Positions 5,063-27,436 of a stretch of DNA of 39,432 nt are shown here, one piece after another. The position numbers and the translations under genes are program-made. The DNA is from Bacteriovoracaceae bacterium (GTDB lineage Bacteria; Bdellovibrionota; UBA1018), in NCBI GenBank assembly GCA_947463705.1, contig CANHSO010000006.1, positions 1 through 39,432 on the forward strand, read 5' to 3'. A model generated the notes under the pieces. The model had not been told where the DNA came from, did not search any database, and worked only from the letters and a program-made list of their open reading frames with translations. The stretch's first letter is position 1; each line of letters opens with the position of its first letter.

Positions 5063-6751
5063 TTAGTCTTTACACTGATTGGTTAAATCCACCTGGATGG
5101 CACCAATCTCATCTTCCCAAATCTCCTTGTTCTCGTTGTCCGAAAGTGTGTACCTGCCCCAATCTAGGACTGGCAGCTTGGAATCACTTGAAAGAGATCC
5201 TTTGACCGCAGTGACTTCAGTATTTTGACTCAATGCTTGAAGTAATTTAGCAGTTTTAGCTGAGGTAAAAATTTCAATTTCAATCATCCTGCTGTTTTCA
5301 TAGGCTCTTAGCCATTTTTCGATCAGCGATTCATTGATCTTTGATAGTTCGCCGTTGATCTTTTGGATCAGTGAGGCGGTCATATTGTTTAAATTAGTTT
5401 GGTATTGGCTCAGACCATTGGATAAGTTGATATTCATACCTGCGAGAGAACGCTTGAGAGGATCCTCGCTATTTTTACCTGGAGATTCGGATCGTATTTT
5501 TTCTCGAATTTGATCAGTAGCGATGTCCTCGTCAGAGACGAGATTGAGTTCTTTTTGTGCTTGAATAAATGCGATTGAATTGAGCCACTGGGAAATCACC
5601 TTTTCAGGAACGAGCTTTTGACTTTTGTCTTTCATTTGCATTTTCAGCATCTGATGAAGATTATAAGCTTGAGCCGAATTTTTTTGATTTTGATGCCAGC
5701 GATAGAGCCAGCCGTAAACTCCATCATACTCCTTGTGAAATATTTTAAGAGCGTCAATTGCAGACGCGTAGTTACAGCTTGAGATTGCTGACATGGCAAC
5801 AATTAACGGAACTTCGGGTTGAAAAGAGTTTTTCATAGAGAAGGCAAGAAGACCATAGGCCTGGTCAATCGCATGTTTATAGTCTTCTTTCTTGATAAAA
5901 GACCAGCCCTTCCCGAGCAAGCTGTCGATGAAGACGGGTGATTTCTGATCCACCTTTGAAAACCAGGAAATGGATTGATCATACTGACCCAGGTTGTAGT
6001 AGGCTCGACCTAGATTCATTTGAATACGAGACCGATTCCTTTTAATTTCTGGAGGTAGATAAGGGGCCTTTTCTAATTTAGAGAAATAAGTCACCACATT
6101 CGATTCATTACCTTGGAGAGAATACTCGGAGCCTACAATGAGGCTTTCGTAAGGGCTTCCGTGGGGTATGAGTGCTAGCTCTTGGGGGTGCTGGGTAATT
6201 GAGCTGGTTCGAGTAAGCTTCCTCAATGCGAGGGAGGTGAGTGCTGAGTAGGCCTTTTGAGCTTGGTCCGGTCTCAGTAGCCTGAGGTTCAGTGTTTTTA
6301 ATACTTGAAGTGAATCTGCTGGATATTCCATTGACTGGAATTTCTGATGAATTTCGTAAAGACAGTCGAGAGATGCAAGTTTTATGTGCGAGAGATTGGG
6401 TGGCGTGCTTCGCCAGAGATTGGAAAATCCGTTGAATGCAAGGTGCACCAAACCAAGTCGAAGTGCTGAGCGATTAAATAGATACAAGGCGATTCTTTGA
6501 GTTTCTGGGTTTTTGGATGTTGATTTGATTTGATGAGCGCTTGTTAAAGTTTCAAGATCATCGGATTCGTTGCTCTTTGAATCGATCATTCTTTGAAGGT
6601 TTTCGGGGTAACGAGCAATTTGCGTCCATTTTTCTCGATCTGTGCAACTTTCGTAGACCTGAGGGAGAGAGGCGGCCTCCACTCTTTGAGTGAGATAGAG
6701 TAAAACTATCCCGATAGTCCATACGAGACCCACCCTCGACTCTGGTGCCAT
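5063..6751 (-). CDS. Exported TPR/alpha-solenoid protein
   Basis: ORF 5063-6808; ATG at 6751 gives a signal peptide (MAPESRVGLVWTIGIVLLYLTQRVEAA). TPR-like segment: NLGRAYYNLGQYDQSISWFSKVDQKSPVFIDSLLGKGWSFIKKEDYKHAIDQ. Confidence 0.75.
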   Translation of the reverse strand: MAPESRVGLVWTIGIVLLYLTQRVEAASLPQVYESCTDREKWTQIARYPENLQRMIDSKSNESDDLETLTSAHQIKSTSKNPETQRIALYLFNRSALRLGLVHLAFNGFSNLWRSTPPNLSHIKLASLDCLYEIHQKFQSMEYPADSLQVLKTLNLRLLRPDQAQKAYSALTSLALRKLTRTSSITQHPQELALIPHGSPYESLIVGSEYSLQGNESNVVTYFSKLEKAPYLPPEIKRNRSRIQMNLGRAYYNLGQYDQSISWFSKVDQKSPVFIDSLLGKGWSFIKKEDYKHAIDQAYGLLAFSMKNSFQPEVPLIVAMSAISSCNYASAIDALKIFHKEYDGVYGWLYRWHQNQKNSAQAYNLHQMLKMQMKDKSQKLVPEKVISQWLNSIAFIQAQKELNLVSDEDIATDQIREKIRSESPGKNSEDPLKRSLAGMNINLSNGLSQYQTNLNNMTASLIQKINGELSKINESLIEKWLRAYENSRMIEIEIFTSAKTAKLLQALSQNTEVTAVKGSLSSDSKLPVLDWGRYTLSDNENKEIWEDEIGAIQVDLTNQCKD

Positions 6752-6758
6752 AGGCCTT

Positions 6759-7922
6759 CTAGCCTTGGCCCAGCATTTTGAAAATAAACGGGTAGTCCAC
6801 GGATACATCTATACCGCCTTTGGGCTTTGGAAAGCGAAATGTACTGAGCTTTCTCATGATACAGTTTGATAGCTGGTCACTGGGGAGAGTTGAGCTGGTT
6901 ATAGAAACTTTTTTAACGCTTCCGCTCCCGCCAATGACAAATCGAACCACAACCCTACCGCTGATATTGGGTTGAGCAATAATTGCTGCTTCATGGCAAT
7001 ACCGAATTGAGTCCATATGTTTGTGAATAATTTGTCCGACCTCGTCAGCTAGGAGACCTTTTTCACTCATCGAGGGCATCGCAGTGTTATCAATAATGTC
7101 ACCACTCAGCTTCCCTTTGATACCCTTGTAATTCTCGAGACCTTCAACAGATGAGATTTGTCTAGTTGAGGGTTTCCCTGAATTTTTCTGAGAGAGATTA
7201 AGATCTGCTTCCTTTGAAATGGACTGAGCCTCTGTTTTGAAAAGATTACTTTGCTGTAGGGACTTATTTTGAGTCGGGCGACTGGGGTTTTTTGTAAGAG
7301 TAAGTGCTGAAGAAAAGAGCTGAGCGAGCGAGGCCGGAGCTTGCGTGCGAGCCTTAGGTTGGGTTTTCTTGGTCGGTCTGGTTGGATTCCAAGCGGGCGG
7401 AGGTGCTGCAACCACTACAGGTGCAGGTGTCTGAGCGACGGGACGCTTAACGAAGTACTTAACTGTGGGGGCTACTTCTTTCTCTATCACTACACTCGTC
7501 TGTTTTTGAGCTTCGGGAGAGAATAAAGCAAAAAGAGCGAGGATTGCGAGAGTTCCTACTGAAAGTCTCCCAAAGAAAGTTTCTTCTAAGGGACGTTTGG
7601 GAGTTGTTTGTTGAAAGAGGAGAGACGCTCCCAGTTGAAAAAGATGACTTGCCGATGAAAGTCGTTTGAGAGATATTTTTAAATTTGGCTCTAGATCGAC
7701 ATGAATAGCTGTATTTTTTGATTGATTTTCAAGGTAATAAAACGAAGGTTTTTGATCTCGAGATGGATTGGGGTCGAGTAAGCGGATGAGTGGTCCTGTA
7801 GGCGTATTTTCGAGTGCCCAGCGAGAAGTATCGCCAAGCAAAAGCGGTTGATCGGGATTCCAGATTTGGACCCTCACGATTTGACCTTGCTGGGTGATGA
7901 CTTTAAAGTGAGATTCTCTCAT
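6759..7922 (-). CDS. AgmX/PglI C-terminal (TonB-CTD-like) domain membrane protein, GltG/GltJ-like
   Basis: Soluble N-terminus, single TM (LSVGTLAILALFALFS), Pro/Ala-rich linker, then IIHKHMDSIRYCHEAAIIAQPNISGRVVVRFVIGGSGSVKKVSITSSTLPSDQLSNCIMRKLSTFRFPKP, typical of AgmX/PglI C-terminal domains. Confidence 0.75.
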   Translation of the reverse strand: MRESHFKVITQQGQIVRVQIWNPDQPLLLGDTSRWALENTPTGPLIRLLDPNPSRDQKPSFYYLENQSKNTAIHVDLEPNLKISLKRLSSASHLFQLGASLLFQQTTPKRPLEETFFGRLSVGTLAILALFALFSPEAQKQTSVVIEKEVAPTVKYFVKRPVAQTPAPVVVAAPPPAWNPTRPTKKTQPKARTQAPASLAQLFSSALTLTKNPSRPTQNKSLQQSNLFKTEAQSISKEADLNLSQKNSGKPSTRQISSVEGLENYKGIKGKLSGDIIDNTAMPSMSEKGLLADEVGQIIHKHMDSIRYCHEAAIIAQPNISGRVVVRFVIGGSGSVKKVSITSSTLPSDQLSNCIMRKLSTFRFPKPKGGIDVSVDYPFIFKMLGQG

Positions 7923-8305
7923 TGCTCTAAACTCATTTTTCTCGCTTCTTCAATCATCTCATGCCTCAGATTGTCGCGGATTTTGTAAAAAATCTTTCTC
8001 TTGGAGCCCTTTCGAGCTGTCGAAAGCAGGAGGTTGTAAGGGTTCTTGTCTGCTCCTTCTACGAGTTCTTCATCAAACGACAGGGAGGTATTTCTTTTAC
8101 CCTGGACTGGAGGTTGGATAGGCTTTCCCGGGGCTGCCGTGGGAGGGGACAATTGCAAGCGAGCGGGCTGTGACATGATGGCCCTGCTGGGCGGGATGGT
8201 TTTCTGCTGTGCGCCAAATGCTTGGGTGGCTACACCCAACCCGACAAGTAGAGTGATAACCAAGCTAGCCATCCTTCGTATTCTGGTCAACTTTGTATCA
8301 AGCAT
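7919..8305 (-). CDS. Small exported Pro-rich protein of the motor operon
   Basis: 128 aa; hydrophobic N-terminus (MASLVITLLVGLGVATQAFGA), Pro-rich linker, then LSFDEELVEGADKNPYNLLLS; 4-bp overlap with the downstream ORF (7919-7922). Confidence 0.65.
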   Translation of the reverse strand: MLDTKLTRIRRMASLVITLLVGLGVATQAFGAQQKTIPPSRAIMSQPARLQLSPPTAAPGKPIQPPVQGKRNTSLSFDEELVEGADKNPYNLLLSTARKGSKRKIFYKIRDNLRHEMIEEARKMSLEQ

Positions 8306-8378
8306 CCGTCTTATGGATCGGTATTATGCGTTGAATCTTAAGTCGGATCTCTCGTCATCAGAGAAATTAGCCGTGAGT

Positions 8379-11300
8379 CTACCTCTGAGCGGCCTCTTTC
8401 AGTTGTTGGAGTTGTCCGTTCTCTAGCGTTGCAGGAGGGGCATTCATTTTCAGTGCTTCGTGAAGCTGTTCGGGTTGACGGGTTAAAAAGTAGTATTGAA
8501 TGAGAGCTGCCTTGGCAATGGATCTCAAATTTTCAGGGGCGTTCTTGTTCAGTTGGGATAGGGTCTGAATCGACTCTGGGTGTGCACCTATGCGACTTAA
8601 AATCAAAGCTCTTGCGAATTGGATTTCATCCTCGGTCCAGATCTTCCGAACGGTGATCATTTGTAGGAGATAAAATGCATGGTTCCATTGTGATTTTTGG
8701 AGAGCCTGGGCTAATTTTTGTTCTACACCTTGAGCGCTTTTCAAGAGAATGAGCCACCTCGGGTCGCTGAGGATCATTGGAGTCTTAGGCGAAACAGCGC
8801 TTACCTTGGCGCGAACAGAGAGAGCCTGAGCCTGTTTTTCAGTCTCAAATGCCGTTTTTAAAAATGGATCTGCGATGCTATGGAGTGACTTTATATAGTC
8901 TTCATGGGACATCTGCCCCAGCTTTTTAGAGTAGGGAATTGCTAAAATGTCGTCCGAAAAATCCCTAAAAATTTGACTCCTAAACTGGAGACCTGCAGCC
9001 TTAAGATACGACCATCCGAGAATCTCAAGTGAAGTGCTGAGTGACTCATAGGTCTTGATGAGCTGCACACGAGCCTTAATTTGTGCGGGATTGAGTTGGA
9101 GTTGAGCCGAGTTTCGAATTTGAGATCGAATCGACTGGAGTGCGCCTGGCAAAACGGAAAAAAGTCGTTTAAGAATTGAAAACTGAGAAAGATGATCCAC
9201 AGACTCCCAGTTTGCAATTATTGCCCTCAGTGCCTGATCATTGGCTTTTAGTCCGACGGAGGCTGAATTTTCTAAAACCAGAGTAGCCCAAAGGGGACGA
9301 ACATTCGGTGAGGCTGTTCGAACCAGTTGCAAGGCTTGAGTTAGCTCTTTTGCATTGAAGGGCTGCGGCCTGTTGAAGTTCAACCATGCTCGATAGTGCT
9401 CGCAAGTCTGATGGAAAGAGTGATCGCAAAAGTGAGAGTCATTCAGGACCTCTTGGCTGAGTTTACTGAGTCCAAAGATCCAACTAAATTTTAATAAACG
9501 TTCTTTTACTCCCCGATAAGTCTCATTCGGTAGTTCGCGACTCTTGAACTGAATTTTAACGATTTCTTTTAGTTTCTCGAGAGCAGTGTCTAATTCAAAA
9601 CGATCTTCTGCAAGTTTCGAGTCAATCAACGCCACTTGAATTGGACTCCCGAGTGAATAGTGGCCTAAGATTTCTCGCCATTTTTGACTGGATTCTGTAT
9701 CCTTATGAGCCAGGGCTTCTTTGAGTCCGAGGCCGACTAGTTCAGCGGCGTGGACGTGACTGGGCATGCTATCTTTTAAGTAGTTGATTGCCAAGCTGAG
9801 TAACAAGTCCTGATTAGCAGATTTGACCTGCGAACGAAATTTCTCAAAATAGGCGTCGTCTAAAAGCTGTTTGATCTGATTGACGATGGTTATGTTTTGA
9901 GTGGAGAAATTAGGCTGAGCCTGATGCGACTCGACAATGACATCTTCCCACTTTCCTTCATTGGTCAGAAATTCAATGAGTCGAGCTTCTGCTAGAGCAG
10001 CCGCTTGTGTTTTTGGATAGGTTTTAATCAATTCTTTGAGTTGTTTTTGATAGTTTTCTCGATCACCAATTCTTAGTAATAAGTCACAGATCACAAGAGC
10101 AAAGTGTTCGTGGTCGGCTGGAGTAAGATTGGACTTGCTTCCTTCAAAATCCTTGATCCAGAGGTTCACCTGGTTTTTTAATAAATCACTGACGACTGGA
10201 TGCTCTTTTGACTTCGATGCTGTTCGGTCGCTGCCCTTGCCTGGAATTAGCAGGTATTTTGTCTGGAGAATTTGGGCCCGAAGTTGAGATTTCAGAGTCT
10301 GAAACTGGGGCGTTGCGTCTAAATATTCTTCTGATTTTGTATAAAATTTAGCAGCCTCATTAAGTCTGTTTCTTTGAAAAGCATCCTCCCCTTGTTTCAT
10401 GTAAATCGTTGCTAGGACCTTGCGGCCTGATGGATCTATTTTTATCAATTCAATGCATTGATTGTGTAGATTCTCACCTTTTTCAGGAGTGTATCCAGTA
10501 AAATTTTTCAGTTTCCCTTGTCGTATTTGTCTGAAAATTCCGACAAGCGTAGATGCGATCTCTTCTGTTATTGAGTTTTTTTCGTTTTCTTTTTTTTTGT
10601 AATCGAGTCTAGAACGAATCAAAGAAATATTGAAATACAAGGATTGAAAATCTCGTTTTTCCAGTGATCGGATGATCAGCTTGTTGATGATTTCTTGTTG
10701 AATTTCTGATTTAATTATAGGATTGAGGGTGATGTTTTTTGAAAATTGGTAAATTAGTCCCTCATTTCCATTTGATCTGAGTAAATTCATGAGCTGCTTG
10801 ACCATGGATTGAATATGGGATCCAGATTTTAGACTGACGAAATAGGGGATGGCCGCGTCGATATTAAAGCCAGGTGTCTTTTTCGAAATGCCATGAAAAT
10901 AAAAAAGTACGATATTGTTTAGAAGCTGTTGCTCCAATTGGTCGGATTCAACTGTGATTAAAGGATTTTTTTTTGTTCCTTGATTTCGAGTTAAGCTAAG
11001 TTCTTTTTCAAGATACTTAATAGCCTGATTAGTCTGGTCTAGGTAGTAATATCCAAAACCAATATGATGCAATATGATGCTTTCGGATTCGGTTGATCGA
11101 GTCAAGACTTCGAGAGAAAGTACAGTATTTAATGCTTCATTGTACCTTTTTTCTGAAACGAGCAATTCGTAGAGCTTAATATTTGAGCTGAGATAAAGAT
11201 CGGACCTTGGATAAGTCTTGATGAGTTTTGCAAGCGTTTCAATAGCCTCTTTATTCTTTTTGAGTTCAGAAAAAGCTTTGGCTCGGTAGGCTAAGATCTG

Positions 11301-11684
11301 ATCTAATTCACGATAATTTTTGTAACTTTTTTGAAATGAAGCTGATTCTAACAAAATGAGATCAAGAGTTGATTGGTAGTCTTGTGTGCGTCTATTGATT
11401 TCATTTGTTGTGGTCGAGCTGTGGATTAGCCGAAACTGAGAAGTACTCAACTGGCTCATTGCCTCGATGATTTTGAACTTAAACTCAGCATCAGACGATG
11501 AATCTGGATGTGAGTTGAGATGATCTCGAAGCAATTGAATCTTGCTGATTTGTGCTGAAGTCACTTGAAGATCAAGCTGCCTTAGATCATCCTCAGACGA
11601 CGACTCATTTTGAGCAAGGGCGAATCGGGTCAGAATCGTAAGAGTCACAACAGCCGTTAGAGCAAATGATTTGATCTGGCCCAC
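8379..11684 (-). CDS. Large exported TPR/alpha-solenoid protein (1101 aa), GltD/AgmU-like by architecture
   Basis: Signal peptide (SFALTAVVTLTILTRFALAQ) and repeated helical TPR-type segments (ALAYRAKAFSELKKNKEAIETLAKLIKTYP-like; HHIGFGYYYLDQTNQAIKYLEKEL). Confidence 0.75.
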   Translation of the reverse strand: MGQIKSFALTAVVTLTILTRFALAQNESSSEDDLRQLDLQVTSAQISKIQLLRDHLNSHPDSSSDAEFKFKIIEAMSQLSTSQFRLIHSSTTTNEINRRTQDYQSTLDLILLESASFQKSYKNYRELDQILAYRAKAFSELKKNKEAIETLAKLIKTYPRSDLYLSSNIKLYELLVSEKRYNEALNTVLSLEVLTRSTESESIILHHIGFGYYYLDQTNQAIKYLEKELSLTRNQGTKKNPLITVESDQLEQQLLNNIVLFYFHGISKKTPGFNIDAAIPYFVSLKSGSHIQSMVKQLMNLLRSNGNEGLIYQFSKNITLNPIIKSEIQQEIINKLIIRSLEKRDFQSLYFNISLIRSRLDYKKKENEKNSITEEIASTLVGIFRQIRQGKLKNFTGYTPEKGENLHNQCIELIKIDPSGRKVLATIYMKQGEDAFQRNRLNEAAKFYTKSEEYLDATPQFQTLKSQLRAQILQTKYLLIPGKGSDRTASKSKEHPVVSDLLKNQVNLWIKDFEGSKSNLTPADHEHFALVICDLLLRIGDRENYQKQLKELIKTYPKTQAAALAEARLIEFLTNEGKWEDVIVESHQAQPNFSTQNITIVNQIKQLLDDAYFEKFRSQVKSANQDLLLSLAINYLKDSMPSHVHAAELVGLGLKEALAHKDTESSQKWREILGHYSLGSPIQVALIDSKLAEDRFELDTALEKLKEIVKIQFKSRELPNETYRGVKERLLKFSWIFGLSKLSQEVLNDSHFCDHSFHQTCEHYRAWLNFNRPQPFNAKELTQALQLVRTASPNVRPLWATLVLENSASVGLKANDQALRAIIANWESVDHLSQFSILKRLFSVLPGALQSIRSQIRNSAQLQLNPAQIKARVQLIKTYESLSTSLEILGWSYLKAAGLQFRSQIFRDFSDDILAIPYSKKLGQMSHEDYIKSLHSIADPFLKTAFETEKQAQALSVRAKVSAVSPKTPMILSDPRWLILLKSAQGVEQKLAQALQKSQWNHAFYLLQMITVRKIWTEDEIQFARALILSRIGAHPESIQTLSQLNKNAPENLRSIAKAALIQYYFLTRQPEQLHEALKMNAPPATLENGQLQQLKEAAQR

Positions 11685-11686
11685 AC

Positions 11687-12181
11687 CTAGTTATCCTCTG
11701 CTACAATCAACTTGTAGGTTTCAAAGCCGCTCAGTGACGCGGTTGCCAGTACTTTTTTGACGAGATCTACCGGAGCGTCTCGATCTGCTAAAATCATCAG
11801 CGGAGTCTTTTTCCGCAGTTCAGGTTCTTTTTCTTTAATTCCCAACAGTGACTGACGGAGTGTGTGCAAACTGCCATCCTGGGCTAGATCTTCTGGTTTG
11901 TATTTGAACTGATTGAGTGGAATGACTTCATGATGGTCGAATTTGATCGCATCCTTTAGGATCTCAATTCCCAATGTATCCATCACTGGCTTGAGGCTAC
12001 TCACTTCTGGGAGTTGAATTCCTGCATCGGGCGTAAATGGGGCAGCCTCTGAACTAAAACTTTTGAGTAGAAAAACGAGTAGAATAACAAAAACGTCGGC
12101 CATAGACGTGATTTGAAGTGCAAAATCCTCAGAAGGTCGTTTCCTCTTGAGGAGCGATTTTCGTTTTTTTTGTGAGCTCAT
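11687..12181 (-). CDS. ExbD/TolR-family protein (second paralogue)
   Basis: Short cytoplasmic basic N-terminus, ALQITSMADVFVILLVFLLKSFSS with TM Asp, periplasmic TolR-like domain (PLMILADRDAPVDLVKKVLATASLSGFETYKLIV). Confidence 0.85.
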   Translation of the reverse strand: MSSQKKRKSLLKRKRPSEDFALQITSMADVFVILLVFLLKSFSSEAAPFTPDAGIQLPEVSSLKPVMDTLGIEILKDAIKFDHHEVIPLNQFKYKPEDLAQDGSLHTLRQSLLGIKEKEPELRKKTPLMILADRDAPVDLVKKVLATASLSGFETYKLIVAEDN

Positions 12182-12642
12182 GGTCCACCTGCCTCCGTAT
12201 TGAAAGCAACTGAACCAAAATTTGATTCAGCCTTCTGGATGGCTTTGACCAACTGATCATAAGAGCCCTTGTCGCTGCCAGCGACTAGAATTGAGTCAAG
12301 CGTAGGGTACTTTTGCTTGATCTGCTTGAGCTCAGAGTCAAGCTTGGCTAGTGCGACTTTCCCACCCTCATCAGGGATATCGATTTCTTGAGAACTCATT
12401 CCAGAAATCTTAAGATGAGCTTGGCCGTGGTCACCGATGTTGAGCTCTAATGAGACGAGGGGAGGATTCGGTATTTCGCCTGCAGTCTGGGTGGCTAAAA
12501 CGATATCAATTCCACCTAGATTGAGAAATGACGTAGAAATCAAAAGATAAGTGATCAAAACCGTAAAGCAGTCAATAAATGAGGAGAGATTGAGCTCGAC
12601 CTCGTAAGAGCCTGATGCGTCTCCCTGCTCGGCTACGTTCAA
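12178..12642 (-). CDS. ExbD/TolR-family protein (first paralogue)
   Basis: VELNLSSFIDCFTVLITYLLISTSFLNLGGIDIVL with TM Asp, then DSILVAGSDKGSYDQLVKAIQKAE; 4-bp overlaps with both neighbours. Confidence 0.83.
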   Translation of the reverse strand: MNVAEQGDASGSYEVELNLSSFIDCFTVLITYLLISTSFLNLGGIDIVLATQTAGEIPNPPLVSLELNIGDHGQAHLKISGMSSQEIDIPDEGGKVALAKLDSELKQIKQKYPTLDSILVAGSDKGSYDQLVKAIQKAESNFGSVAFNTEAGGP

Positions 12643-17200: not shown

Positions 17201-20200
17201 GTTCGAATCGGGAGAACTCGAAGGCGCTGGAATGGTGGGACTTGATGCGAAGAAGCGCTTCACTTCGACTGTGCTGAGAGTGTAAGGCGACTTGACTGTA
17301 AACGAAGGATTCCAAGTAAAATGCCTGACGTTCCTGCCTCCGATCGGGGAGACATAATTCGAGTAGTCAAATTCACGAGGGGCACCTGTGATGCTACCTG
17401 CTGCAATCGTGACATCAGGCGTTCCAGTTCCTCTGCGGTAAACAGTTTGGGGAGATGAGGCAACCCAAAAATCATCACTGCCGGTGCCGGCGTGATGAGC
17501 CCTGACATTCACACAATAGTCAGCGATTCGATCTGCTGTTGAGGTGAGCCCGGCAGTTGCACTGTTTTTAAGGTCGGAGAAAGTGATTGGAATTGAGGTT
17601 CCATTTTGAATGTCGGAATAACTCAGTGCAGCCGAAGGCCTAAAAATATCAGCGTCTGCAACGGAGGATCGACTGCAATTCCCGCTCCCTTTTCTCCAAA
17701 CCTCGATTTGGTAGGCGGGAGATCCGAAGCGACTTGAAGATACAGGCATCGGTGAAGCTAAAACTCCGAACCGGTCGTTGCCTGGCGTTGTTGCGTCTGG
17801 CGTCACTGTAGGGGAAGCGAGTGGACCAAACGGCGTGCCATTGCGGACTTGGACGGTCGCAAGGTTGGCTAGGTCTGTCCCACCGAGAAGTGAAGCCTGA
17901 TAGTTGAAATATCGGTCACCGGGTGCAAACGGACTATACGTCGCATTGGGCCAGGTACCTGAGTCGACATTGGCTTCATTCCCTAATTGAGACGTGCTGT
18001 CGGGAATCTGCATCTCATAGCACCAGCCGTAGGTGGCGCCTGTATTACAACTGGCCACAGAAACTGGAGAGGGACTGGGCGAAGCCACTGTGTTTTGTGC
18101 GATCGAGCTCCAATTTGGAGTGGAAGCCGAAGCTACTTTCCGCTTGAATATCACGTCGCCTGGAATCAGTGAGCCGCTTGGCGAAAACACTCGAGCAGCG
18201 AGAGCCCAAGTCGATCGGGTTTTTCCGGAGGAGTTGAAATCAGTGACAGGCGAAGGGCTTGGACTGATGAGGGTCAGGGTCGGTTGATCGTTAGAGAGAT
18301 CCACTGTGCCACAGTAGTCTTGTGTGGTGCTCACTCCTCGCGAGGTCGCTGTGACCCGATAACAAATTTTATGGAAATTAAAGTAGTCAGCGTCTGACCA
18401 GTTGCCGATTGCGCTTGAGGACTCAGCTGTGCCGTCTGTTTTTGCGTGCATTGTGATTACGTCATTTTGAGCTCCAGAAGCTCGTACGATGAAGTTGCCA
18501 GGACCGGTCGAGGGTAGGCTGTAAATGCTACTGATTGGGCTATAGGACGCTGTAGGTGTAGCAAAGTTTGCGTCGGTCGGAGCAGTGTTGCTGAGTAAAT
18601 GGGCCCTTGTGACAGTGATGGATTGCACCAAGTCATCTGAGCTGATGCTAAATTTTGGATTCCAAATCCAGGTATAGCGGTCACGCCCACTGACTGTGGT
18701 CACCGAGGGTGATGGCGAAGGATGGACTAAGGCAGTGACAGTGGGTGCATTTGTGCTGATATAACGATGGACTGCTCGAGTTCCTGTGGCTGACGTACAG
18801 ATCTCAGTACCGCCAGAGGACCCTGGTCGGCACGCTTTGAGATCAAAGCAGAAATCGCCAATCCGGTGAGCAAATGAGGTTGCTGAAGTAACACTCGTAA
18901 AATCCGAAAAATTCGGAGTAAAGGAAGTCGTGTCACTCGGATTAATGCTCGTGAAGGTCTTGGTCTTGATGCTTGGGCTGTCGCCGGGGCCGGGGCGATT
19001 GGTGCAGTCGGTTGTGCCAGGATTGATTTCCCAGGCCTCAAAGCGGTAGCTGTGAGAGCAAGTGGCTTGGAGGCGTGTTGCGCTGAATGTCAGTTGATCT
19101 GAGGCAGCGTAGGCGCCGCTATCAAGACTGAATGAGAAGCTACTTGGGTTGGTTAAGGAGACCCAAAAGGGATCTGTTGCATCAGTTTTGCCGATTTCAG
19201 TTCCGCCACTGAGAGGCTTGACCGCTAAGCTGTATTGCACCGATCGAGCGCCTGCAAAGGGGATGTAACTTGGGTCGTTTTCGAATGGAGTGGGAGTTGA
19301 GTTCTGGAGATCTGCGAAATTAGCAGAAGCCGTGTTTCCACTTGCCTCTGCGGCGTTGATTGCGGCTGAGTTATCGTCAAAGGATGCGGTGTAGGTCCAA
19401 GGTCCGGTGCAGCTGTCACCTGCCGCCGAGCAATTGTTTGCGCCAGGGCTCCAGGTGACCGAGGGGTGTAACGCAACAGCCGACGATTGTTCCGATGATG
19501 ATCCTCCGCCTTTGATCCATGATCGATAAATATTCAGATCGCCTTCAGTGAGAGATGAGCTGTAAGAGGTGATACTGGCTCGAGCCCCCCATTGCCATTG
19601 GATTTTGCCGGCACTGTTGAAATAAGAAACGGGTGAAGGGCTTGGTGAGGCAAAAGTAATGACTGGGTTTTCACTACTGAAGTCGAAGGTGTGACAGTAT
19701 TCCCGAGTATAAACTGTAGAATCACTTTCCTGGGTTACGTTAATTTTGTAGCAGATTTTTTGGAATTTATGATCTGTGTCAAAACTCCAGTAAGACGCGG
19801 AGGTTTCACCTCTGTCAGTGGCAGGCGCACTGCCTTTGATTAAATGCATCTGATAGGTGTTTCCGCAGGTGTCACCCGCCAGTGGACGTTGAGTTATGTC
19901 GGCTGCAATATAAGAAGCGATGGGGGTAGGTGAATAGGTGGGGGCAACACTATTCAGGTCCGCTAAAGAGGTATCATTGGAAATGTGGGCTCGTTGGATA
20001 GTCACCTCGGTGAGACTAGCAGTTGTTCTCGTAATATTAAAAGTAGGGTCCCATTTCCACAGCCGTTTGAGGTGGGTTGTTGAGAGACTGGAGGACGTGG
20101 GGCTTGGAGTAAAGTTGCCGGGTGAGCCATCTGAGCCATCTGAGCCGAGGGTGATCGCAAGAGTTCCATTCGAAGCTCTCGTAATGGAATCGCCCTCAGC

Positions 20201-23200
20201 GGCGTTAGCGGCAGGGTCGGGGGTGCAGATCTCCTGGCCAGCTGAATTGCGACACATCAAAAGTTTGACGCAATAATTCGCAGGGCGGTCTGGGTTACAA
20301 CTACTATAAGCATTAGAACTATCTGCTTTTTTAAAATCATTGAAACTGAGTTGTTTCGTGGGTTGTCCGGTCTCATTTGGACTGGGTGTCCAAGTAAATG
20401 AGGGAATCGGCGATGGAGACGCCGACGTTCGGACACAGTTACCTCCTGCTGCTGCCTTCCAAACCTCAGTCTTGTAATAGTGTTCGACTGTAGGAGAAGG
20501 AGGTGCTTGCCAGGAAAAAGTGACCTGATCATTGCTGCTGGAATATGTGTGAGTTAGAGAACTGAAAAGGGTCTGGGTGTTATCTAGGGTGAATGGAGTA
20601 CTTGTCCTGCTCAATCCTGAGAGATAGGTAGAACTGGTTTGATATTGAACTGTCTTGCTACCTGAAAACGATGTGTAGGCTGTATCCGCCTCATAGGCCA
20701 AGGCTGAGGTCGGGGTATCTCCTATCTGGCTGAGTGCAGAGGTCTCAGTGGTCGTTGCAGTCACGCGATAGCACCAAGGCCCCTGGGACGGTTCGGTACT
20801 CAGAGTCGTCTGGGGGGAGTTGCAGGAGACAGATGATCGAGTTAAAGTGACCGGTTGAGAGGTACCGCTCACGACACGGTTGAGCGTCAGATCTGAGCTC
20901 AGTAAAGTCGAAGTTTTGGATTGAAGAGTTGCCCCGACAGGCCAACGCCATTGGATTTTTCCAGCTGCATTGAAATAAGCTCGTGGAGTAATCGAATCAA
21001 AAGTCACGGTCGGAGCGTCATTCCTTAGATCCCGGTTTTGGCAATAGGTTTCCGTAATCGGGTCCCTACCACGATCTTCTGGGGTCACTTTGATTTTGTA
21101 ACAAACCCGGTGAAGCTCAAAGTTATCGAGATCATTCCATTCATGGTCAGCAGCGTGGATCACGCTGGAGGACTCTCCTGATCCTGTTGTATTGAGATGC
21201 AGGGTGATTTGGTCGGTATTGGCAGTCGAACTGGCTAGCGTGCGGCTGATTCCACTCGTAGTACTTTCGTAAATGTCAGTAGAATTAAAAATGCCGTTCA
21301 CAATTGGTCCGTAATTTTCGAGGTCTTGATCAGTGTCGGCGTCATGATTAACTCCGCCGACATGAAAGTGAGCCCTTTCGATCTCAATGCTTTCTAGTCT
21401 TAGCCCAGCATGAATTGTGAAGGTTGGATCCCAAACGAACGTTCTAAGAGTACGCGAATTGTCAGAGCGAGTGCTGGATTGAAGGGTAAAGGTTCCTGGA
21501 GTTCCATCCGTTGCTGCACTCTGAGCTTGAAGTGTTAGATTCGTATTTGTTTGTCTCCGAACGAGAGTTGGGTTCTGGGCTTGAGTGCAAATTTGAGTTC
21601 CTGAGGAGCTGGTTCTGCAAACACTTAAACCGATGCAGTAGTTTGCAATCCGATCTCCGCTGCCATTGAAGCCAAAACCATTGAAAAGCACGTCAACGCT
21701 GCAGAATGAGTCTCCGCTGGAGCAAGAGCTCATCACTGTGTCCAGGTTGGGCGAAGTGATCGTCTGACTTTCGATTGTTGTAGCTGCACTCCGAGTGTTT
21801 GAGCAAGACGTGGCGCCAGCGCTCAATTTCCAAGCTTCAATAGAATAGGTGCGTGGGGTGATCGATGCTTTGATAGGAACGCCGCTGACTGTAATCTTTT
21901 CTGAATTAGCGTCCCCTGAAGTGTAAGTAGCCGAGCTCAGTCTGAAGGTGTTGATCCCGCTGCCATCGAATAGATCTGAGTTATCGAGGAGGGTGTCTGG
22001 GAGTATGGAGACGGGAGTTCCGTAGTTTACTCCCCCTGGCCTCGTAAGAGTGATCGTGTAATTGAACGTACGATCGCCAGAGAAGCTCCGGTAGCTCGAG
22101 TTGGTGTCAAATCCATTTCCACCGTGGAGTTCGTCTCCCATTCCTGTGGCTGCCGAGGTCTCAGCTAGACTGACTCGGTGGCACCATGGGCCCGCAGCTG
22201 GGGGAGTGAATCCAGTCACAACAGCATTTGGATTGGCGCAGTCCACGGAGGTTAGATTGGGTGTGAGTGTGTACGTCCCACCTCCTCCGCTGGTCACCGT
22301 GACTGACCGGGCGAGAGACATATTCGACGCTGTCAGCGGGAATCCATCCGATCGGACCGTGGCGCCATAATCCCAACTCCATTGGATTTGACCATTTTGG
22401 TTAAACGATGAAACTGGGTTTGAGATGGTGGGCTCATTTACTACGTGCGGGAGATCGGTGTGAAAGTGTTGGCAGTAATCTTGATAGAATGTCGAAGTTC
22501 CGTCACTGGGGACTGCCTCAATTCGGTAACAGACTTGGTGGTAGGCAAAATCGTTTGCATCATCCCAATTGAGGCCGGAGGCTGTGTTGGATTGATCGCC
22601 TGAAGCCGAAGGAAGAGTGTCGGTATGAGTGCCATTTTTGAGTCGAACCAGGGTTTGATTGGCATCCGTCCCAGAAGTACTGACGGCCGGGGTACTGTAA
22701 GAGGTGATAGGACTGACTGAGTTGTAAACTGCATCAGCAGGTCGGCTTGCAGGGAAAGCTGCATCTTGAGTTTGAACCACTCGATAGACGTTGATCTGAC
22801 TCAAAACGCGAGGAGAGCTGACTCTAAACTGCGGGTCCCAGGCCCAATGTCGAACCGTTGGATTGCCCGAGGCAAAAGGGACCGGGGAGAAGCTCGCTCC
22901 GATGATGGGAGTGATTCCCGTGGCCGCAGCGACTGCCTCAATGGCGTTCGATCCGCTCCCGATGCGATGGACCTCGAGGGTGTTGGTGCGAGCTAGAAAT
23001 GCACTGACAGCTCCCACTGTGGCATGTCGTGCAACCAGATTCGTGCAATAATCTGCGATCCGATCAGCAGTCGACGTGAATCCAAGAGAATTAAAGGTCA
23101 CTGAAGCCGTGAGTTGTCCAGAGGCATTGACGCTGAAGGCTGGAGATTGAGTTTGAACATCTCTTGCTGATGCGTGATCACAGGACGCAGTCGTTTTCTT

Positions 23201-26200
23201 CCAGGCTTCAACTTGATAATCAGGAGAGGCGAACTGACTTGCGGTCGCATGGATCGGCGTGCCGACAAACTCAATGCGGTCAGAAGCAGGGTTATTCCCG
23301 AGATCCCGAACTGGAGTCGCGGAAGCTAGAGCAAAAGGTGCACCATGTGTGAGAGATAAGGCTCCTGGATATCCAGCGGGATCAGAAGCAGCGAAAGCGG
23401 TCGGATTATCAGCTGCGATCGTCGTTGAGGTGCCTGCCACAGGAGTCATCACCCAACGGTATCGAATTTTACGCGAGCCTGTAAAAGGCTGGTAGGTATT
23501 ATCGCTCTGGAACTGACCGCTACCGCCAGTATCGGGTCGGAGGTTCGTGTCTGTGATGTCAGTGGTTTCTACGGTCGTGGCCTTGGAGGTATCCGGTGCC
23601 GTGATTTGATAACACCACGGTCCATTAGCTGAAACGGCTTCCCCTCCACAACCGATTGGGGTGAAATTGAAATTGGCTGAAGGGGTTGCGATGGAATGAT
23701 AATCGGAACGACCCGTGCTTGAAGGATTGGCGTCATTGAGGGCGTTCCAGTTAGTCCCAAAGATCCTTTGGATATCAATTGAGCTTGCTGAAAGTGCCGA
23801 TGCCTCCGATTTAATTTTTGAGCCTACAGTCCAACTCCACTGGACTTTTCCATACGGATTGAAATCCCCGACTGGAGTGTTGATTTGGGTAAACTCAGTC
23901 ACGCTTGGAGCATCGTGATGGAATGTATGGCAGTAAACTTGAAGTTGAGGGCTACCCCCTGCGGTTGCGCTGAGCTGATAACACACTCTGTGATACCGAT
24001 AGTCGGTTGCGACTGTCCAATTTTTCGCACTAGCGATGGAAGCATAAGTTTCCGAAGCGGAGGCTAAGGGAAGGTGATAGGTGTAGCTTCCTCCACTGCA
24101 GCTTGCGTTACGATAAGTTGCCGTTTGGAGATCGCCTTCATTTAAATCCGTTATCGAAGCTGGCGCGGCTGCTGATGAGAAATCAGGCGCCGCGCTAAAT
24201 CCATTGGCTGCTGCGGCAGTATCAACGACTCGCTTGACTTGATAGTTCGTAATCGGTGCAGTGGATGTTGCAGTGAAACGTGGATTCCAGCTGTAATTCC
24301 GGCTGAGTGGGGTGCCTGATGGTGTCGCACCAATGACGGAGAATGTGCCAAGTGAGCTGACTGGAGCCGGATCGGTTGCGGAGGTGTAGGAGCCCGCTGC
24401 TGCCTCAGAAGCGATGGTTACTGTCCCCGTGGGACGTCTACGGATCAGTCGAGCAGGGGGGGCGTAGCAGATCGTTCTACCTGCGTTACAGGCCCGAAGC
24501 CCGATGCAATAATCTCCCGAAATCTGTTCACAGGAACCAAAATCGAGTCCCCCTTCAGCGGTTGGCTTTACAAAATCAATCGATGTAGGAAGTGCTTGGT
24601 TCTTAGTAAATTGGACTGAGTGAATATCTCCGGCCGTTGCAGGTCGGTTGGCGCAACTATCGTTTATTTTTCTCCAGCCTTCAATCTGGTAAGTGTCAAG
24701 ATTCGAGACATTGGTTGGCATGGGGATAATATTTATCGTGGCACTTGAGGTAGTCAGGGTTGATCCTTCTTCAGGTGGATTCGTTCCAAACCCAAAAGAG
24801 TGTGCACCAAAGTCCAGAGTAGTGTCCTCACTAGACGCCTTAGAGTTGTCGGTTCGTTCGACTAAGTCAGTGGGGCTCACGAGTGTGTAGGCGTATGGAT
24901 TCGGACTCGGAACCCCTGCGCCAGAGTTCGCAGCGTGGGAATCGCTGGCAGTGAATGAATATTCGGTACAACCCGAGCGTTGAGTCTCGGCCCCAGTCCA
25001 GCTAGGCAGAGGGCTAGGGTTACTATAGATCGCGAGTTTTTCAGAGATCTTTGTACTGAACAAGATTGAGCTGGGGACTGAGCTCGAAGACGGTTTACAG
25101 TCCCGAATTTTGCCGCCCACTGTCCAGTTCGCGGTGATTAAGCCTGTTGCGCCAAACGTATAAGTTGGAGTTCCGTTGTTCCATTCAATCTTTGTACTGG
25201 GTTGCGCAATGGGTATGGGTGGGGTCTCATTTTGAGGGGGTGTGCAGTCGTTCGACGAATTGCAGGCATCCACCGCGATACAAAGACTCGATGGATAGAG
25301 CTCAGTGAGCTCTGTTGCTTTAAATGCATAAGGAATACTATAACTGTACCCGGAGGGATCATCGGCAGTGGTGATACGCTGAACGGGTGAGGGTGCCGCA
25401 CTCGGATCGTCCAGATTAGAATGGAAAGTTATTGAATCACCGCTACTGGGCCGAATGGTTAAATAATTACGGCTTTGGTGGTCGGCGTTGCAGCGCTGAA
25501 TGGGATTGTCATCGTTCCAATAGTAGGCACGGTAATGGTCCACGGCCCCATATTCAAGTGTGCTGAATTGAATGTTCCCTGGGAGTGTTAAGACGAATCC
25601 TTCCCCATGAGCGTTCTTGTCGATTTGGGCGACGGTTGCGCTCACTTCGTTTACAGGGCGGACGTCGGGCTGCACGAGGAGTGCTGTTCGCTCACTTGAC
25701 CTATTTCCAAAAGAATCGATCGCCCGGACGCATGCGTAGTAATTGGAGTTAGGCTGCCAGGTGATCTTCTCTAGAGCGGATTTGCCTAGATGAATCCGAT
25801 GATCAGATGGGTCTGAGAAAATTAAGTTTTGAGTACCTTGAGTAGGAGTATCTTGGGCAGGATAGCTTAGATCATAGGTGGATTTATGTCTGGTTCTATC
25901 TTCAACGGACCACATGGGTGAAGGACTCGAGCTACAAAGTTGCATCGGTGACGGTGAGGCTCTTGGAGTTCGATACAGCGTGATTTGGTAGGAACTTGCA
26001 AACTCGTAATTTGGGAGTGAACCGCTCGACAGGTTGGGCCAACTGAGATCAGGGTTCAGGTTGGGACCACCGATAAAGATTGGACTCACGCCAGGGGATG
26101 GGCTCACGGTTGCCAGAGTTGCCGAGGATCCAACGGGAAAGGTGGGTGGATTCGTTTTAGGCTTTTGCCCTACGATATAGAGAGAAATCGGTCCAGAGAT

Positions 26201-27268
26201 CGGCATAGAGTTCGACTGATTGAGGATCTCGATCTGCATTTCAAATAGCCCTAGCCCTAAATAAGGTTTGAGGTCGGCGCTAAAAGTGGCTGTCGGATCA
26301 AATCTTAAACGAATCCTGTTCGGCGTTGTCGTGTCTAGACCGGCGAAGCTGAGGGCAGGTGAAAGTGGACAAGGACTGCGATTGCAAGGACTCGGGATCG
26401 AGTTAGCAATTTCGTCGCCAGATATCTGATCTGAAAATTGATATCCCAGCAACGAGGAGTGAGTGATCCACCCTGCTGGTGTGGACGAGCCAAGATAAGT
26501 ATTTTTAAAGGATGTTTTTTCAGGGTCGCTGTCATCAAGGCGATCCCCATTGAATTGGTAGCCAAGAGAGAGGAACCCAGCCGTGTAGTCTGGATTGCTG
26601 AGTATTGGATTACGGTTTGTGACAAACGTCCTCGAGTCTGCGGTTGGCCATGGGATGAGCCGTAAGTAGGGTTGAGGTGCGGATTTTCCTGATGCTGGAT
26701 AACTTGCGGTGAGGATGCGCTCTTCTTGCGTAGAGGGGTCGAGGCCGAGCCCATAAGTCAGGGAGAATTCTCCCGAAAAATTCTTTCCGTCTGGCTTGAG
26801 CTCGCTCAAGCGGTTTGGGGTCGGAGCATGAAAGCGGATTTCAAAGGTGCAGGAGTTATTTCCGCCTACAGCATCAAGTTGCTTTAAATTTTGACAGAGG
26901 TTGCCCTCGCTGGGGATTTCAAACGGATTTGTTGCTGAGTTGATTCTGGGGTGATCTGCTGGAGCGTCTCCTCTGTTGAATAGGGAGAGGGTCGCGCCTA
27001 AAGTGGACCCAAACGGAGCTTCTGGAAAAGAAATACTTTGCGTTGCCGCGTCTACGGTTCCGATGAGTCCGGTGGGTCTGCTTGCCATCTTTCCATCCAA
27101 GCCTACAAAATAGGTGGGGAAAGTGCCGGAGGTCAGCTTCACCTTTGGGCGCGGATACCTCGAAAATACAGCCAAATTAACCACGTTGCCACACCCATTG
27201 AGGAACGGCACTGCGAGGAGCAGAAAGAGTCCGATCTTTGACGTGCTTAATCCGACTAAATTAGTCAT
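13433..27268 (-). CDS. Giant repeat-containing lipoprotein (about 4,611 aa): lipobox, HYDIN-like domain, Fn3-like super-repeats, FGE/C-lectin-like C-terminus
   Basis: Single uninterrupted ORF 13433-27310 (TTG at 27310). ATG at 27268 gives MTNLVGLSTSKIGLFLLLAVPFLNGC|GN, a canonical lipoprotein signal, and is the preferred start. Confidence 0.93.
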   Translation of the reverse strand: MTNLVGLSTSKIGLFLLLAVPFLNGCGNVVNLAVFSRYPRPKVKLTSGTFPTYFVGLDGKMASRPTGLIGTVDAATQSISFPEAPFGSTLGATLSLFNRGDAPADHPRINSATNPFEIPSEGNLCQNLKQLDAVGGNNSCTFEIRFHAPTPNRLSELKPDGKNFSGEFSLTYGLGLDPSTQEERILTASYPASGKSAPQPYLRLIPWPTADSRTFVTNRNPILSNPDYTAGFLSLGYQFNGDRLDDSDPEKTSFKNTYLGSSTPAGWITHSSLLGYQFSDQISGDEIANSIPSPCNRSPCPLSPALSFAGLDTTTPNRIRLRFDPTATFSADLKPYLGLGLFEMQIEILNQSNSMPISGPISLYIVGQKPKTNPPTFPVGSSATLATVSPSPGVSPIFIGGPNLNPDLSWPNLSSGSLPNYEFASSYQITLYRTPRASPSPMQLCSSSPSPMWSVEDRTRHKSTYDLSYPAQDTPTQGTQNLIFSDPSDHRIHLGKSALEKITWQPNSNYYACVRAIDSFGNRSSERTALLVQPDVRPVNEVSATVAQIDKNAHGEGFVLTLPGNIQFSTLEYGAVDHYRAYYWNDDNPIQRCNADHQSRNYLTIRPSSGDSITFHSNLDDPSAAPSPVQRITTADDPSGYSYSIPYAFKATELTELYPSSLCIAVDACNSSNDCTPPQNETPPIPIAQPSTKIEWNNGTPTYTFGATGLITANWTVGGKIRDCKPSSSSVPSSILFSTKISEKLAIYSNPSPLPSWTGAETQRSGCTEYSFTASDSHAANSGAGVPSPNPYAYTLVSPTDLVERTDNSKASSEDTTLDFGAHSFGFGTNPPEEGSTLTTSSATINIIPMPTNVSNLDTYQIEGWRKINDSCANRPATAGDIHSVQFTKNQALPTSIDFVKPTAEGGLDFGSCEQISGDYCIGLRACNAGRTICYAPPARLIRRRPTGTVTIASEAAAGSYTSATDPAPVSSLGTFSVIGATPSGTPLSRNYSWNPRFTATSTAPITNYQVKRVVDTAAAANGFSAAPDFSSAAAPASITDLNEGDLQTATYRNASCSGGSYTYHLPLASASETYASIASAKNWTVATDYRYHRVCYQLSATAGGSPQLQVYCHTFHHDAPSVTEFTQINTPVGDFNPYGKVQWSWTVGSKIKSEASALSASSIDIQRIFGTNWNALNDANPSSTGRSDYHSIATPSANFNFTPIGCGGEAVSANGPWCYQITAPDTSKATTVETTDITDTNLRPDTGGSGQFQSDNTYQPFTGSRKIRYRWVMTPVAGTSTTIAADNPTAFAASDPAGYPGALSLTHGAPFALASATPVRDLGNNPASDRIEFVGTPIHATASQFASPDYQVEAWKKTTASCDHASARDVQTQSPAFSVNASGQLTASVTFNSLGFTSTADRIADYCTNLVARHATVGAVSAFLARTNTLEVHRIGSGSNAIEAVAAATGITPIIGASFSPVPFASGNPTVRHWAWDPQFRVSSPRVLSQINVYRVVQTQDAAFPASRPADAVYNSVSPITSYSTPAVSTSGTDANQTLVRLKNGTHTDTLPSASGDQSNTASGLNWDDANDFAYHQVCYRIEAVPSDGTSTFYQDYCQHFHTDLPHVVNEPTISNPVSSFNQNGQIQWSWDYGATVRSDGFPLTASNMSLARSVTVTSGGGGTYTLTPNLTSVDCANPNAVVTGFTPPAAGPWCHRVSLAETSAATGMGDELHGGNGFDTNSSYRSFSGDRTFNYTITLTRPGGVNYGTPVSILPDTLLDNSDLFDGSGINTFRLSSATYTSGDANSEKITVSGVPIKASITPRTYSIEAWKLSAGATSCSNTRSAATTIESQTITSPNLDTVMSSCSSGDSFCSVDVLFNGFGFNGSGDRIANYCIGLSVCRTSSSGTQICTQAQNPTLVRRQTNTNLTLQAQSAATDGTPGTFTLQSSTRSDNSRTLRTFVWDPTFTIHAGLRLESIEIERAHFHVGGVNHDADTDQDLENYGPIVNGIFNSTDIYESTTSGISRTLASSTANTDQITLHLNTTGSGESSSVIHAADHEWNDLDNFELHRVCYKIKVTPEDRGRDPITETYCQNRDLRNDAPTVTFDSITPRAYFNAAGKIQWRWPVGATLQSKTSTLLSSDLTLNRVVSGTSQPVTLTRSSVSCNSPQTTLSTEPSQGPWCYRVTATTTETSALSQIGDTPTSALAYEADTAYTSFSGSKTVQYQTSSTYLSGLSRTSTPFTLDNTQTLFSSLTHTYSSSNDQVTFSWQAPPSPTVEHYYKTEVWKAAAGGNCVRTSASPSPIPSFTWTPSPNETGQPTKQLSFNDFKKADSSNAYSSCNPDRPANYCVKLLMCRNSAGQEICTPDPAANAAEGDSITRASNGTLAITLGSDGSDGSPGNFTPSPTSSSLSTTHLKRLWKWDPTFNITRTTASLTEVTIQRAHISNDTSLADLNSVAPTYSPTPIASYIAADITQRPLAGDTCGNTYQMHLIKGSAPATDRGETSASYWSFDTDHKFQKICYKINVTQESDSTVYTREYCHTFDFSSENPVITFASPSPSPVSYFNSAGKIQWQWGARASITSYSSSLTEGDLNIYRSWIKGGGSSSEQSSAVALHPSVTWSPGANNCSAAGDSCTGPWTYTASFDDNSAAINAAEASGNTASANFADLQNSTPTPFENDPSYIPFAGARSVQYSLAVKPLSGGTEIGKTDATDPFWVSLTNPSSFSFSLDSGAYAASDQLTFSATRLQATCSHSYRFEAWEINPGTTDCTNRPGPGDSPSIKTKTFTSINPSDTTSFTPNFSDFTSVTSATSFAHRIGDFCFDLKACRPGSSGGTEICTSATGTRAVHRYISTNAPTVTALVHPSPSPSVTTVSGRDRYTWIWNPKFSISSDDLVQSITVTRAHLLSNTAPTDANFATPTASYSPISSIYSLPSTGPGNFIVRASGAQNDVITMHAKTDGTAESSSAIGNWSDADYFNFHKICYRVTATSRGVSTTQDYCGTVDLSNDQPTLTLISPSPSPVTDFNSSGKTRSTWALAARVFSPSGSLIPGDVIFKRKVASASTPNWSSIAQNTVASPSPSPVSVASCNTGATYGWCYEMQIPDSTSQLGNEANVDSGTWPNATYSPFAPGDRYFNYQASLLGGTDLANLATVQVRNGTPFGPLASPTVTPDATTPGNDRFGVLASPMPVSSSRFGSPAYQIEVWRKGSGNCSRSSVADADIFRPSAALSYSDIQNGTSIPITFSDLKNSATAGLTSTADRIADYCVNVRAHHAGTGSDDFWVASSPQTVYRRGTGTPDVTIAAGSITGAPREFDYSNYVSPIGGRNVRHFTWNPSFTVKSPYTLSTVEVKRFFASSPTIPAPSSSPDSNCSGCTNLSIYASPTPSSPANALNEMTLNLRSSDTLTTNQRNSTTPFYTGDWTDGSVTTPSGQQNGLGWNDASNFDYNRVCYQIKATPTDPTASPTLGTICQNFHNDAPAPSYSFSPVTSDFNQFGKFQFGWTLNATIQSWTSSLTTGDVTLKRNVTGLISGASTTSADVNIASSPSPTLTPVSCSDLTTTSSSSNPWCYKLTAADNSFANSGESGHLDTGSDFLGNSDTYTTYSYDPSHTRQIQYRLLAALPASSGPTSQPLTASDRSLATITPIPSFTVSGVTYTSATDQIAFSGQAMRASGIRSYKIYVWKQTGAGCQTSVPASSGANPVVASPLPASSASPLPTGIPIGNFFNTCTATQDDFQQNYCTALQACNNAAGTGICTFAKNASGGQAISSFFRTRSNALSITATPGGAIGTFHTPAVSFSPGSSDDSRTWNWRIPITVSAPSRLNGDLTLQRVFYTPGAPIADSNGTTVPSDWASATQVTLSPLNPSDTLPSGCQQNYIYSATLTGRSTGLWSDNGATVRSPRICYKIRATLVNSTSLDHYICRTFTIEPQFNPTATWPSSNSVTVNLSTGTAKPMVVNSPAPVASYRAQLWNKSSVSGGTCTPSGSFTPSPILTSWIAGSSTSRNLTINSGAGSCFDKHRPLCVQVDACTGAADSTCTNRTGSIQELDVPTYSSSIQPTFNPTLAITPTRDPDGDDSAAAKAKWRWRLKLDQITSAIPITGIQVWRKVGEDNPSLIGTISTIPQFTFTAPTCNGNYGSPIYTYSFAQPGAGTTCTTDASKGLFCQDSSGLSNEAQPTDTLIQYQLRVATANDPTTYNVQGTLVNPSGSTTPTLPYLWLYNSPPTQPSARPAFGLISGSGTSGSPFQMKTLSLKLTGTCDAFTTSQAGGSANTEVTVTEGATIAQSSSDHVKNLSATCSKTSTSTFSETSSEFRNRRSTFNFDNTAGILTVTANLKDNSNVPFTINIKSTDRWNNSSIKIYYFNNNFSCPTGFVGVPSKNINASVADFCVSQYQMTYQSSGEYHEFGRTSSQVTCRDNYIAYSTRPFFKGSWGNLFNNTSGNFGTTSIEPPLRISLGSGEFISGIFLASSFSGYRCGQTYNDLSATNSAQCTSYPSSGDRTISFLGRDINFAFCTQEFEATAADFACKGYGDRLNFGTSTYSNFALLTAAEWNNISNLAGDAASQTGRDLQNGQTIYGFNGALALNPITQWTGAAQREITYGVNGTNVLKGTTPSTYYGIRCTYRP
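15521..16840 (-). repeat. Giant-protein super-repeat unit 7 (440 aa)
   Basis: Begins FNQFGKFQFGWTLNATI; contains YKIYVWKQTGAGC, QNYCTALQACNNAAGTGICT, RTWNWRIPITV, SPRICYKIRATL; a degenerate eighth start (FNPTATWPSSNSVTV) follows at 15520. Confidence 0.7.
16841..18238 (-). repeat. Giant-protein super-repeat unit 6 (466 aa)
   Basis: Begins FNSSGKTRSTWALAARV; contains YQIEVWRKGSGNC, STADRIADYCVNVRAHH, VRHFTWNPSFTV, FDYNRVCYQIKA. Confidence 0.75.
18239..19621 (-). repeat. Giant-protein super-repeat unit 5 (461 aa)
   Basis: Begins FNSAGKIQWQWGARASI; contains YRFEAWEINPGTTDC, RIGDFCFDLKACRPGSSGGTEICT, YTWIWNPKFSI, FNFHKICYRVTA. Confidence 0.75.
19622..20974 (-). repeat. Giant-protein super-repeat unit 4 (451 aa)
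   Basis: Begins FNAAGKIQWRWPVGATL; contains YKTEVWKAAAGGNC, RPANYCVKLLMCRNSAGQEICT, RLWKWDPTFNI, KFQKICYKINV. Confidence 0.75.
20975..22405 (-). repeat. Giant-protein super-repeat unit 3 (477 aa)
   Basis: Begins FNQNGQIQWSWDYGATV; contains YSIEAWKLSAGATSC, GDRIANYCIGLSVCRTSSSGTQICT, TFVWDPTFTI, FELHRVCYKIKV. Confidence 0.75.
22406..23863 (-). repeat. Giant-protein super-repeat unit 2 (486 aa)
   Basis: Begins FNPYGKVQWSWTVGSKI; contains YQVEAWKKTTASC, STADRIADYCTNLVARH, VRHWAWDPQF, FAYHQVCYRIEA. Confidence 0.75.
23864..25156 (-). repeat. Giant-protein super-repeat unit 1 (431 aa)
   Basis: Unit defined from the FGATGLITANWTVGGKI motif to the next F-N-x-x-G-K-x-Q-W-x-W motif; contains GDYCIGLRACNAGRTIC and YRYHRVCYQLSA. 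Confidence 0.65.
26750..27034 (-). other. HYDIN/choice-of-anchor-D-like Ig domain in giant protein
   Basis: ISFPEAPFGSTLGATLSLFNRGDAPAD...FEIPSEGNLCQNLKQLDAVGGNNSCTFEIRFHAPTPNRLSE...FSGEFSLTYG follows the fG...ltltNtG...C...l.ag.sCt.ei.F.P pattern. Confidence 0.6.
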
Positions 27269-27436
27269 ATACTGTAGTTCAAGTCTACCTAGACCATCGG
27301 AATAGCTCAAGAAAATGTTGAACTTAAGAGTTCGAGTGCGTGATCACTTTCAAAGACGTGAAAAAACAAGAACCTAGAGACCGTGTCCTGGATGGCACAG
27401 TCAGAGTTTTGAATGGAATGCAGTTCGGGTGAGAAA

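Follow-up and report, generated by a model that had tools for sequence, protein, structure and literature searches.

The window, a stretch of 39,432 nucleotides on contig C6 of the draft genome G000 (2.17 Mb), carries eight open reading frames on its minus strand, all of them open throughout and in the order and lengths of the first-pass annotation. They begin with a giant lipoprotein gene (13433–27310), which a spacer (13317–13432) separates from a gene for a TolQ/ExbB-type proton channel of the AglR type (12639–13316; PF01618 (MotA_ExbB), 5.7e-29, and trees). ExbD/TolR-like stator protein 1 (12178–12642; PF02472, 5e-13) and stator protein 2, of the AglS/AglQ type (11687–12181; PF02472, 4.6e-12), both have the transmembrane Asp (LSSFIDCFTVLI and ITSMADVFVILL, respectively). 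The set is completed by an exported 1101-aa TPR protein in the GltD position (8379–11684; TPR matches), a small exported Pro-rich protein (7919–8305), a GltG-type protein (6759–7922; NF033768, 2.4e-28, above cut-off; TonB_C, 6.3e-8) and a GltC-like TPR protein of 581 aa (5063–6808; NF033756, 4e-13, a local match under the equivalog cut-off). Profile searches bore out the initial TolQ, double ExbD, TPR and AgmX/PglI assignments, and the 4-bp overlaps claimed at 12639–12642, 12178–12181 and 7919–7922 are present.

The set extends beyond 5063, where it had been supposed to end. Two plus-strand genes are also members, encoding an outer-membrane β-barrel of the OMP_myx_plus family (3772–4551; TIGR04565, 2e-20, above cut-off) and a small GYF_2 protein with a weak PilZ-like match (4567–5061; GYF_2, 8.5e-4, and PilZ, 0.15, both under cut-off). 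We include both despite their strand because G013, the nearest motor orthologue, keeps the layout of the window, including a GYF/PilZ gene convergent to gltC; its cluster is spread over two contigs, apparently two halves of one cluster. Homologues of the barrel lie between GltG and GltC, or adjoin TolQ, in related clusters, and by this likeness we assign it as the counterpart of the barrel gene that ordinary clusters carry between gltG and gltC. Homologues of the GYF/PilZ-like protein are encoded directly 3' of GltC, or next to an outer-membrane protein or TolQ, in many Glt clusters. It is a recurrent partner that no NCBIfam model names, and is probably a cytoplasmic partner or regulator.

Elsewhere, a search of the window for RNA families found none, and the protein encoded at 38273–39004 matches the NMD3 family (1.2e-8, above cut-off). 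This match is unusual for a bacterium and probably reflects a shared zinc-ribbon-type part.

Motor proteins

Family matches, gene order and phylogeny support the proposal that TolQ, two TolR proteins, GltG, a GltC-like protein and a TPR protein form a trans-envelope machine of the Agl/Glt type. The GltG-type protein has a cytoplasmic N terminus, one transmembrane segment and a periplasmic AgmX/PglI (TonB-like) C-terminal domain. This domain scores 98 bits against a cut-off of 40 (NF033768), and the full GltG equivalog model yields 95 bits of the 650 needed. The GltC model NF033756 yields 49 bits of 450 with a match that covers only the C-terminal half of the protein, which is 19–29% identical to GltC-position proteins in other clusters. 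The 1101-aa TPR protein has no match to the GltD model; its similarity to the TPR proteins of other Glt clusters is 18–27%, rising to 32% for G013. The small Pro-rich protein is CglF-like by position and weak similarity, with 31–37% matches to counterparts of 88–108 aa, and a counterpart in other clusters itself matches CglF weakly (0.005). Among the window proteins none matched a GltE model and none reached the cut-off of a full-length Glt equivalog model. Relative to the sister species (G001), the motor genes are under strong purifying selection (dN/dS 0.06–0.36).

The TolQ and ExbD family matches would also fit an ordinary Tol–Pal or ExbBD system, but we regard this explanation as extremely improbable. 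The TolQ, ExbB and TolR equivalog cut-offs are missed by far (TolQ, 81.7 bits against 221; ExbB, 52.2 against 206), two TolR genes are present with GltG and GltC as neighbours, and the operon has no TolA/TolB/Pal set. Moreover, TolQ groups with Glt-type TolQ proteins, to which it is 43–56% identical outside the genus, apart from the genome's other TolQ-type genes.

The locus had been offered as an undescribed system. That description fails for the motor because the Agl/Glt core complex of Myxococcus is already described, with four sets counted in Bdellovibrio (Luciano et al. 2011, PMC3169522); Bd0412–0420, Bd0828–0838, Bd1473–1483 and Bd2368–2377 are tonB/agl-like operons (PMC2797640).

In a tree of concatenated TolQ, ExbD and ExbD sequences, the window falls in a separate branch of ten loci (support 97.9/96) and groups with G001 and G013 (100/100). 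From this placement we classify the motor as a second, divergent ('type 2') Agl/Glt paralogue, the ordinary copy lying elsewhere in the same genome. A wider search of genome collections for distant homologues returned mostly unrelated TolQ/ExbB genes. The draft genome itself contains ten MotA/TolQ/ExbB-type genes, and its third AgmX/PglI-domain protein is encoded at G000:C28:15751–16020 within a 710-aa frame.

The position upstream of tolQ in related clusters

We surveyed 39 relatives for the closest TolQ genes and their neighbours. A recurring cluster encodes, in order, a 282-aa protein, a lipoprotein of ~560 aa, TolQ, ExbD, ExbD, a TPR protein of ~1,150 aa, a CglF-like protein of ~95 aa, GltG, an outer-membrane barrel and GltC, often with the GYF/PilZ-like gene next. 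Over 20 loci from this taxonomic order show the arrangement, among them G000:C30, the ordinary copy.

In at least 22 related loci, tolQ is immediately preceded by the gene for the ~560-aa MIDAS/VWA lipoprotein, and in almost every case this protein contains a DNSxS MIDAS motif. Two of these proteins were scanned and gave weak, sub-cut-off matches to the MIDAS-adhesin and CglD models; the others were recognized by BLAST to one of these two and by the motif. They constitute a candidate gliding adhesin family, one of the 22 being carried by G000:C30 (L050:8992–10752), and the surface end of the machine in ordinary clusters is probably this lipoprotein. Bd1483 of Bdellovibrio is a MIDAS protein with a lipobox (PMC11003981), and its number closes the Bd1473–Bd1483 operon range (PMC2797640, PMC11003981).

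The MIDAS gene is missing from the window, where the giant occupies its position. Among members of the divergent branch whose upstream side is readable, none carries a MIDAS gene as the immediate upstream neighbour of tolQ. Outer-membrane barrels stand there in G017a, G023b and G054, and an exported 281-aa protein in G013. Other loci have lipoproteins there, including MtsD-like VWA proteins (G017c, and a divergent one in G037), and G017a has a MIDAS-type lipoprotein downstream of gltC.

The giant lipoprotein

The giant was first put at ~4,600 aa, which holds as an approximation. Its frame runs to 4,625 aa from a TTG, but an ATG at codon 15 (position 27268) is followed by a classic lipoprotein signal (LLLAVPFLNGC, with lipobox LAVPFLNGC), and we therefore place the length at ~4,611 aa. 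About seven repeats of ~465 aa occupy residues ~870–4100. The frame is not a chance one, since it is preserved in a congener, where the protein has 4,631 aa and is 76% identical, with a dN/dS of 0.43; dS is similar for the giant and the motor genes.

Searches of Pfam and NCBIfam gave no match for the giant, a sequence search of solved structures gave none of substance, and the protein has no DxSxS (MIDAS) motif. A model of the repeat (mean pLDDT 55) returned weak tandem Ig/FN3-like matches as its only Foldseek hits, from which the repeats are probably all-β and Ig/FN3-like. The model of the C-terminal domain, built from two sequences, was unusable (pLDDT 30). All-β repeats, in a model of low confidence, together with selection that is relaxed yet purifying, would fit a surface-exposed rod. 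The surface is likewise where we would place the protein.

Of 58 genomes of the order, 2 contain homologues of the giant, and these belong to a single genus, so that synteny between giant-lipoprotein and TolQRR genes is largely absent from relatives. Paralogues of 2,029–2,672 aa, members of the same genus-restricted family, are encoded at G000:C50 (L165:7256–13687) and at G001:C4, C5 and C17 (L166–L168), beside unrelated genes and not beside motor genes. The C50/C4 paralogue adjoins a divergent gene whose product is outer-membrane barrel-like in G001.

Junction and chromosomal site

Membership of the giant in the motor operon is not backed by a gene overlap, as 116 bp separate it from tolQ. 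No terminator-like site was found on the minus strand of 13317–13432. In G001 the corresponding spacer is 1.1 kb long and holds an opposite-strand gene for a REP-associated tyrosine transposase-like protein (L031:10735–11547); all that remains conserved of the junction there is ~70 bp ahead of tolQ and ~25 bp beyond the end of the giant gene. The motor genes of G001 stay strongly constrained despite the transposase between giant and tolQ. The giant is probably a transcription unit separate from the motor. The REP-type element is multi-copy, with about a dozen copies in each of G000 and G001, and a '270-aa gene' at the G001 junction, considered as a gene of the system, was rejected as such a transposase.

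In the window, nusB and glyA (SHMT) flank a single 23.5-kb block (3691–27436, both strands) that contains the giant, the motor and the barrel, and the same set stands between them in G001. The block is absent from the congener G002, in which glyA and nusB face each other ~75 nt apart; G002 is only 77% complete, yet its contig runs through the site. The two genes are also close together in other genera examined (G013, G003, G023 and G017). The most economical history is that the block was gained once; it may instead have arisen by two insertions, or G002 may have lost it. No terminal repeats were found at the block ends, each searched on its own.

Two insertions at one neutral nusB/glyA site would be the history if the giant were an unrelated surface lipoprotein, functioning in a coat, in prey contact or in a matrix. 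We give this explanation not quite an even chance. All other members of the family were found at sites without motor genes, and separate transcription is likely. At 0.51, the giant's GC content agrees with that of the chromosome, whereas the motor genes are mostly lower (0.42–0.50). The ordinary Glt copy, however, is also low in GC (0.45–0.48), so GC cannot separate the origin of the giant from that of the motor, and we rejected it as a mark of separate origin. Independence of giant and motor moreover requires two arrivals at the same point.

The competing explanation, under which the giant serves this motor specifically, as its adhesin or as the cargo it moves, and the two form one functional module, is one we take seriously while rating its chances as somewhat below even. 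Giant, motor and barrel share a block that a congener does not have at this site, the position upstream of tolQ holds a lipoprotein adhesin in ordinary clusters, other type-2 loci have VWA/MtsD-like or MIDAS lipoproteins next to them, and giant and motor have diverged to a similar dS. SprB, a giant adhesin of ~6,500 aa moved by a proton motive force (pmf)-driven motor in Flavobacterium, provides a precedent (PMC13104615). Against this, the giant is genus-restricted with motor-less paralogues, other loci of the branch do not have it, a transposase gene sits at the G001 junction and G013 has a different gene there. The original idea of the giant as adhesin or cargo thus stays alive because of the single block, with its congener-empty site, and the slot it fills; the tie to the motor that it presumed is weakly supported.

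Discussion

In the Agl/Glt family, TolQ and TolR turn proton flow into motion, GltG and periplasmic TPR proteins relay it, and an outer-membrane barrel and a surface protein make contact with the exterior. We consider it likely that the locus encodes a type-2 machine of this family (5063–13316 with 3772–5061) with the giant in the adhesin position. The TolQ-like ring and the two TolR-like proteins would take up protons and move. The TonB-like GltG, the TPR proteins in the GltD and GltC positions and the CglF-like protein would carry this motion across the periplasm to the barrel, the GYF/PilZ-like protein probably acting on the cytoplasmic side. The giant, probably a rod-like β-repeat lipoprotein of a genus-specific family, would hold the slot upstream of tolQ. 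This force path is drawn from homology with the known machines. By analogy, the machine may drive gliding motility in this bacterium.

The same class of parts builds the Nfs spore-coat machine, and the Agl/Glt core complex occurs as well in bacteria for which gliding is not known (PMC3169522). An operon for surface assembly or export that moves or exports the giant, without gliding, is nonetheless unlikely in our judgement, since the motor-less paralogues would then have to be exported without a neighbouring machine.

Returning to the Agl/Glt machine with the giant in the adhesin position, a broader idea is that Bdellovibrio-like Glt motors carry exchangeable surface heads. A motor/transducer core would be conserved and the neighbouring lipoprotein adhesin swapped between branches, for a MIDAS, MtsD-like VWA or RCC1 protein elsewhere and for a ~4,600-aa β-repeat rod, pulled along the surface, here. 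We advance this tentatively and think it rather doubtful. In ordinary clusters tolQ and a lipoprotein adhesin gene form a conserved pair that is replaced in the window, and this supplies named genes for testing.

Compared with the Agl/Glt core of M. xanthus (AglR, AglQ, AglS, GltC, GltD, GltE and GltG) and its Bdellovibrio copies, the window has in common TolQ with two TolR proteins, a GltG-type TonB-like protein, GltC-like and GltD-position TPR proteins, an outer-membrane barrel and organization in one operon. It differs from ordinary copies in being ~20–40% identical outside TolQ, in having no recognized GltE, in the opposite strand of its barrel and GYF/PilZ genes, and in the giant repeat lipoprotein that replaces a MIDAS lipoprotein upstream. 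The genome's own ordinary cluster, G000:C30 (L050), matches the window in gene content and order between tolQ and gltC, with TolQ ~50% identical, but it has a 586-aa MIDAS/VWA lipoprotein gene and the 282-aa gene upstream of tolQ, and its barrel lies between gltG and gltC.

In Myxococcus the Glt complex works with the VWA adhesin CglB at the surface (PMC13104615). The giant resembles the MIDAS adhesins Bd0875 and Bd1483, and CglD, as a predicted surface lipoprotein encoded beside a motor. Unlike them it has neither a MIDAS motif nor a sequence match, and it consists of putative all-β repeats and is ~8 times longer. With SprB it would share the pairing of a giant repetitive surface protein with a pmf motor, by analogy only: SprB needs a type IX system, whereas the giant is a lipoprotein encoded beside an AglRQS-type motor. 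If the motor does move the giant, this would be the second independent pmf-powered giant adhesin after SprB. As judged from its genes, then, the locus is a divergent Agl/Glt machine, with a motor of a kind already known, in which the ordinary adhesin is missing and a genus-specific giant lipoprotein stands in its position.
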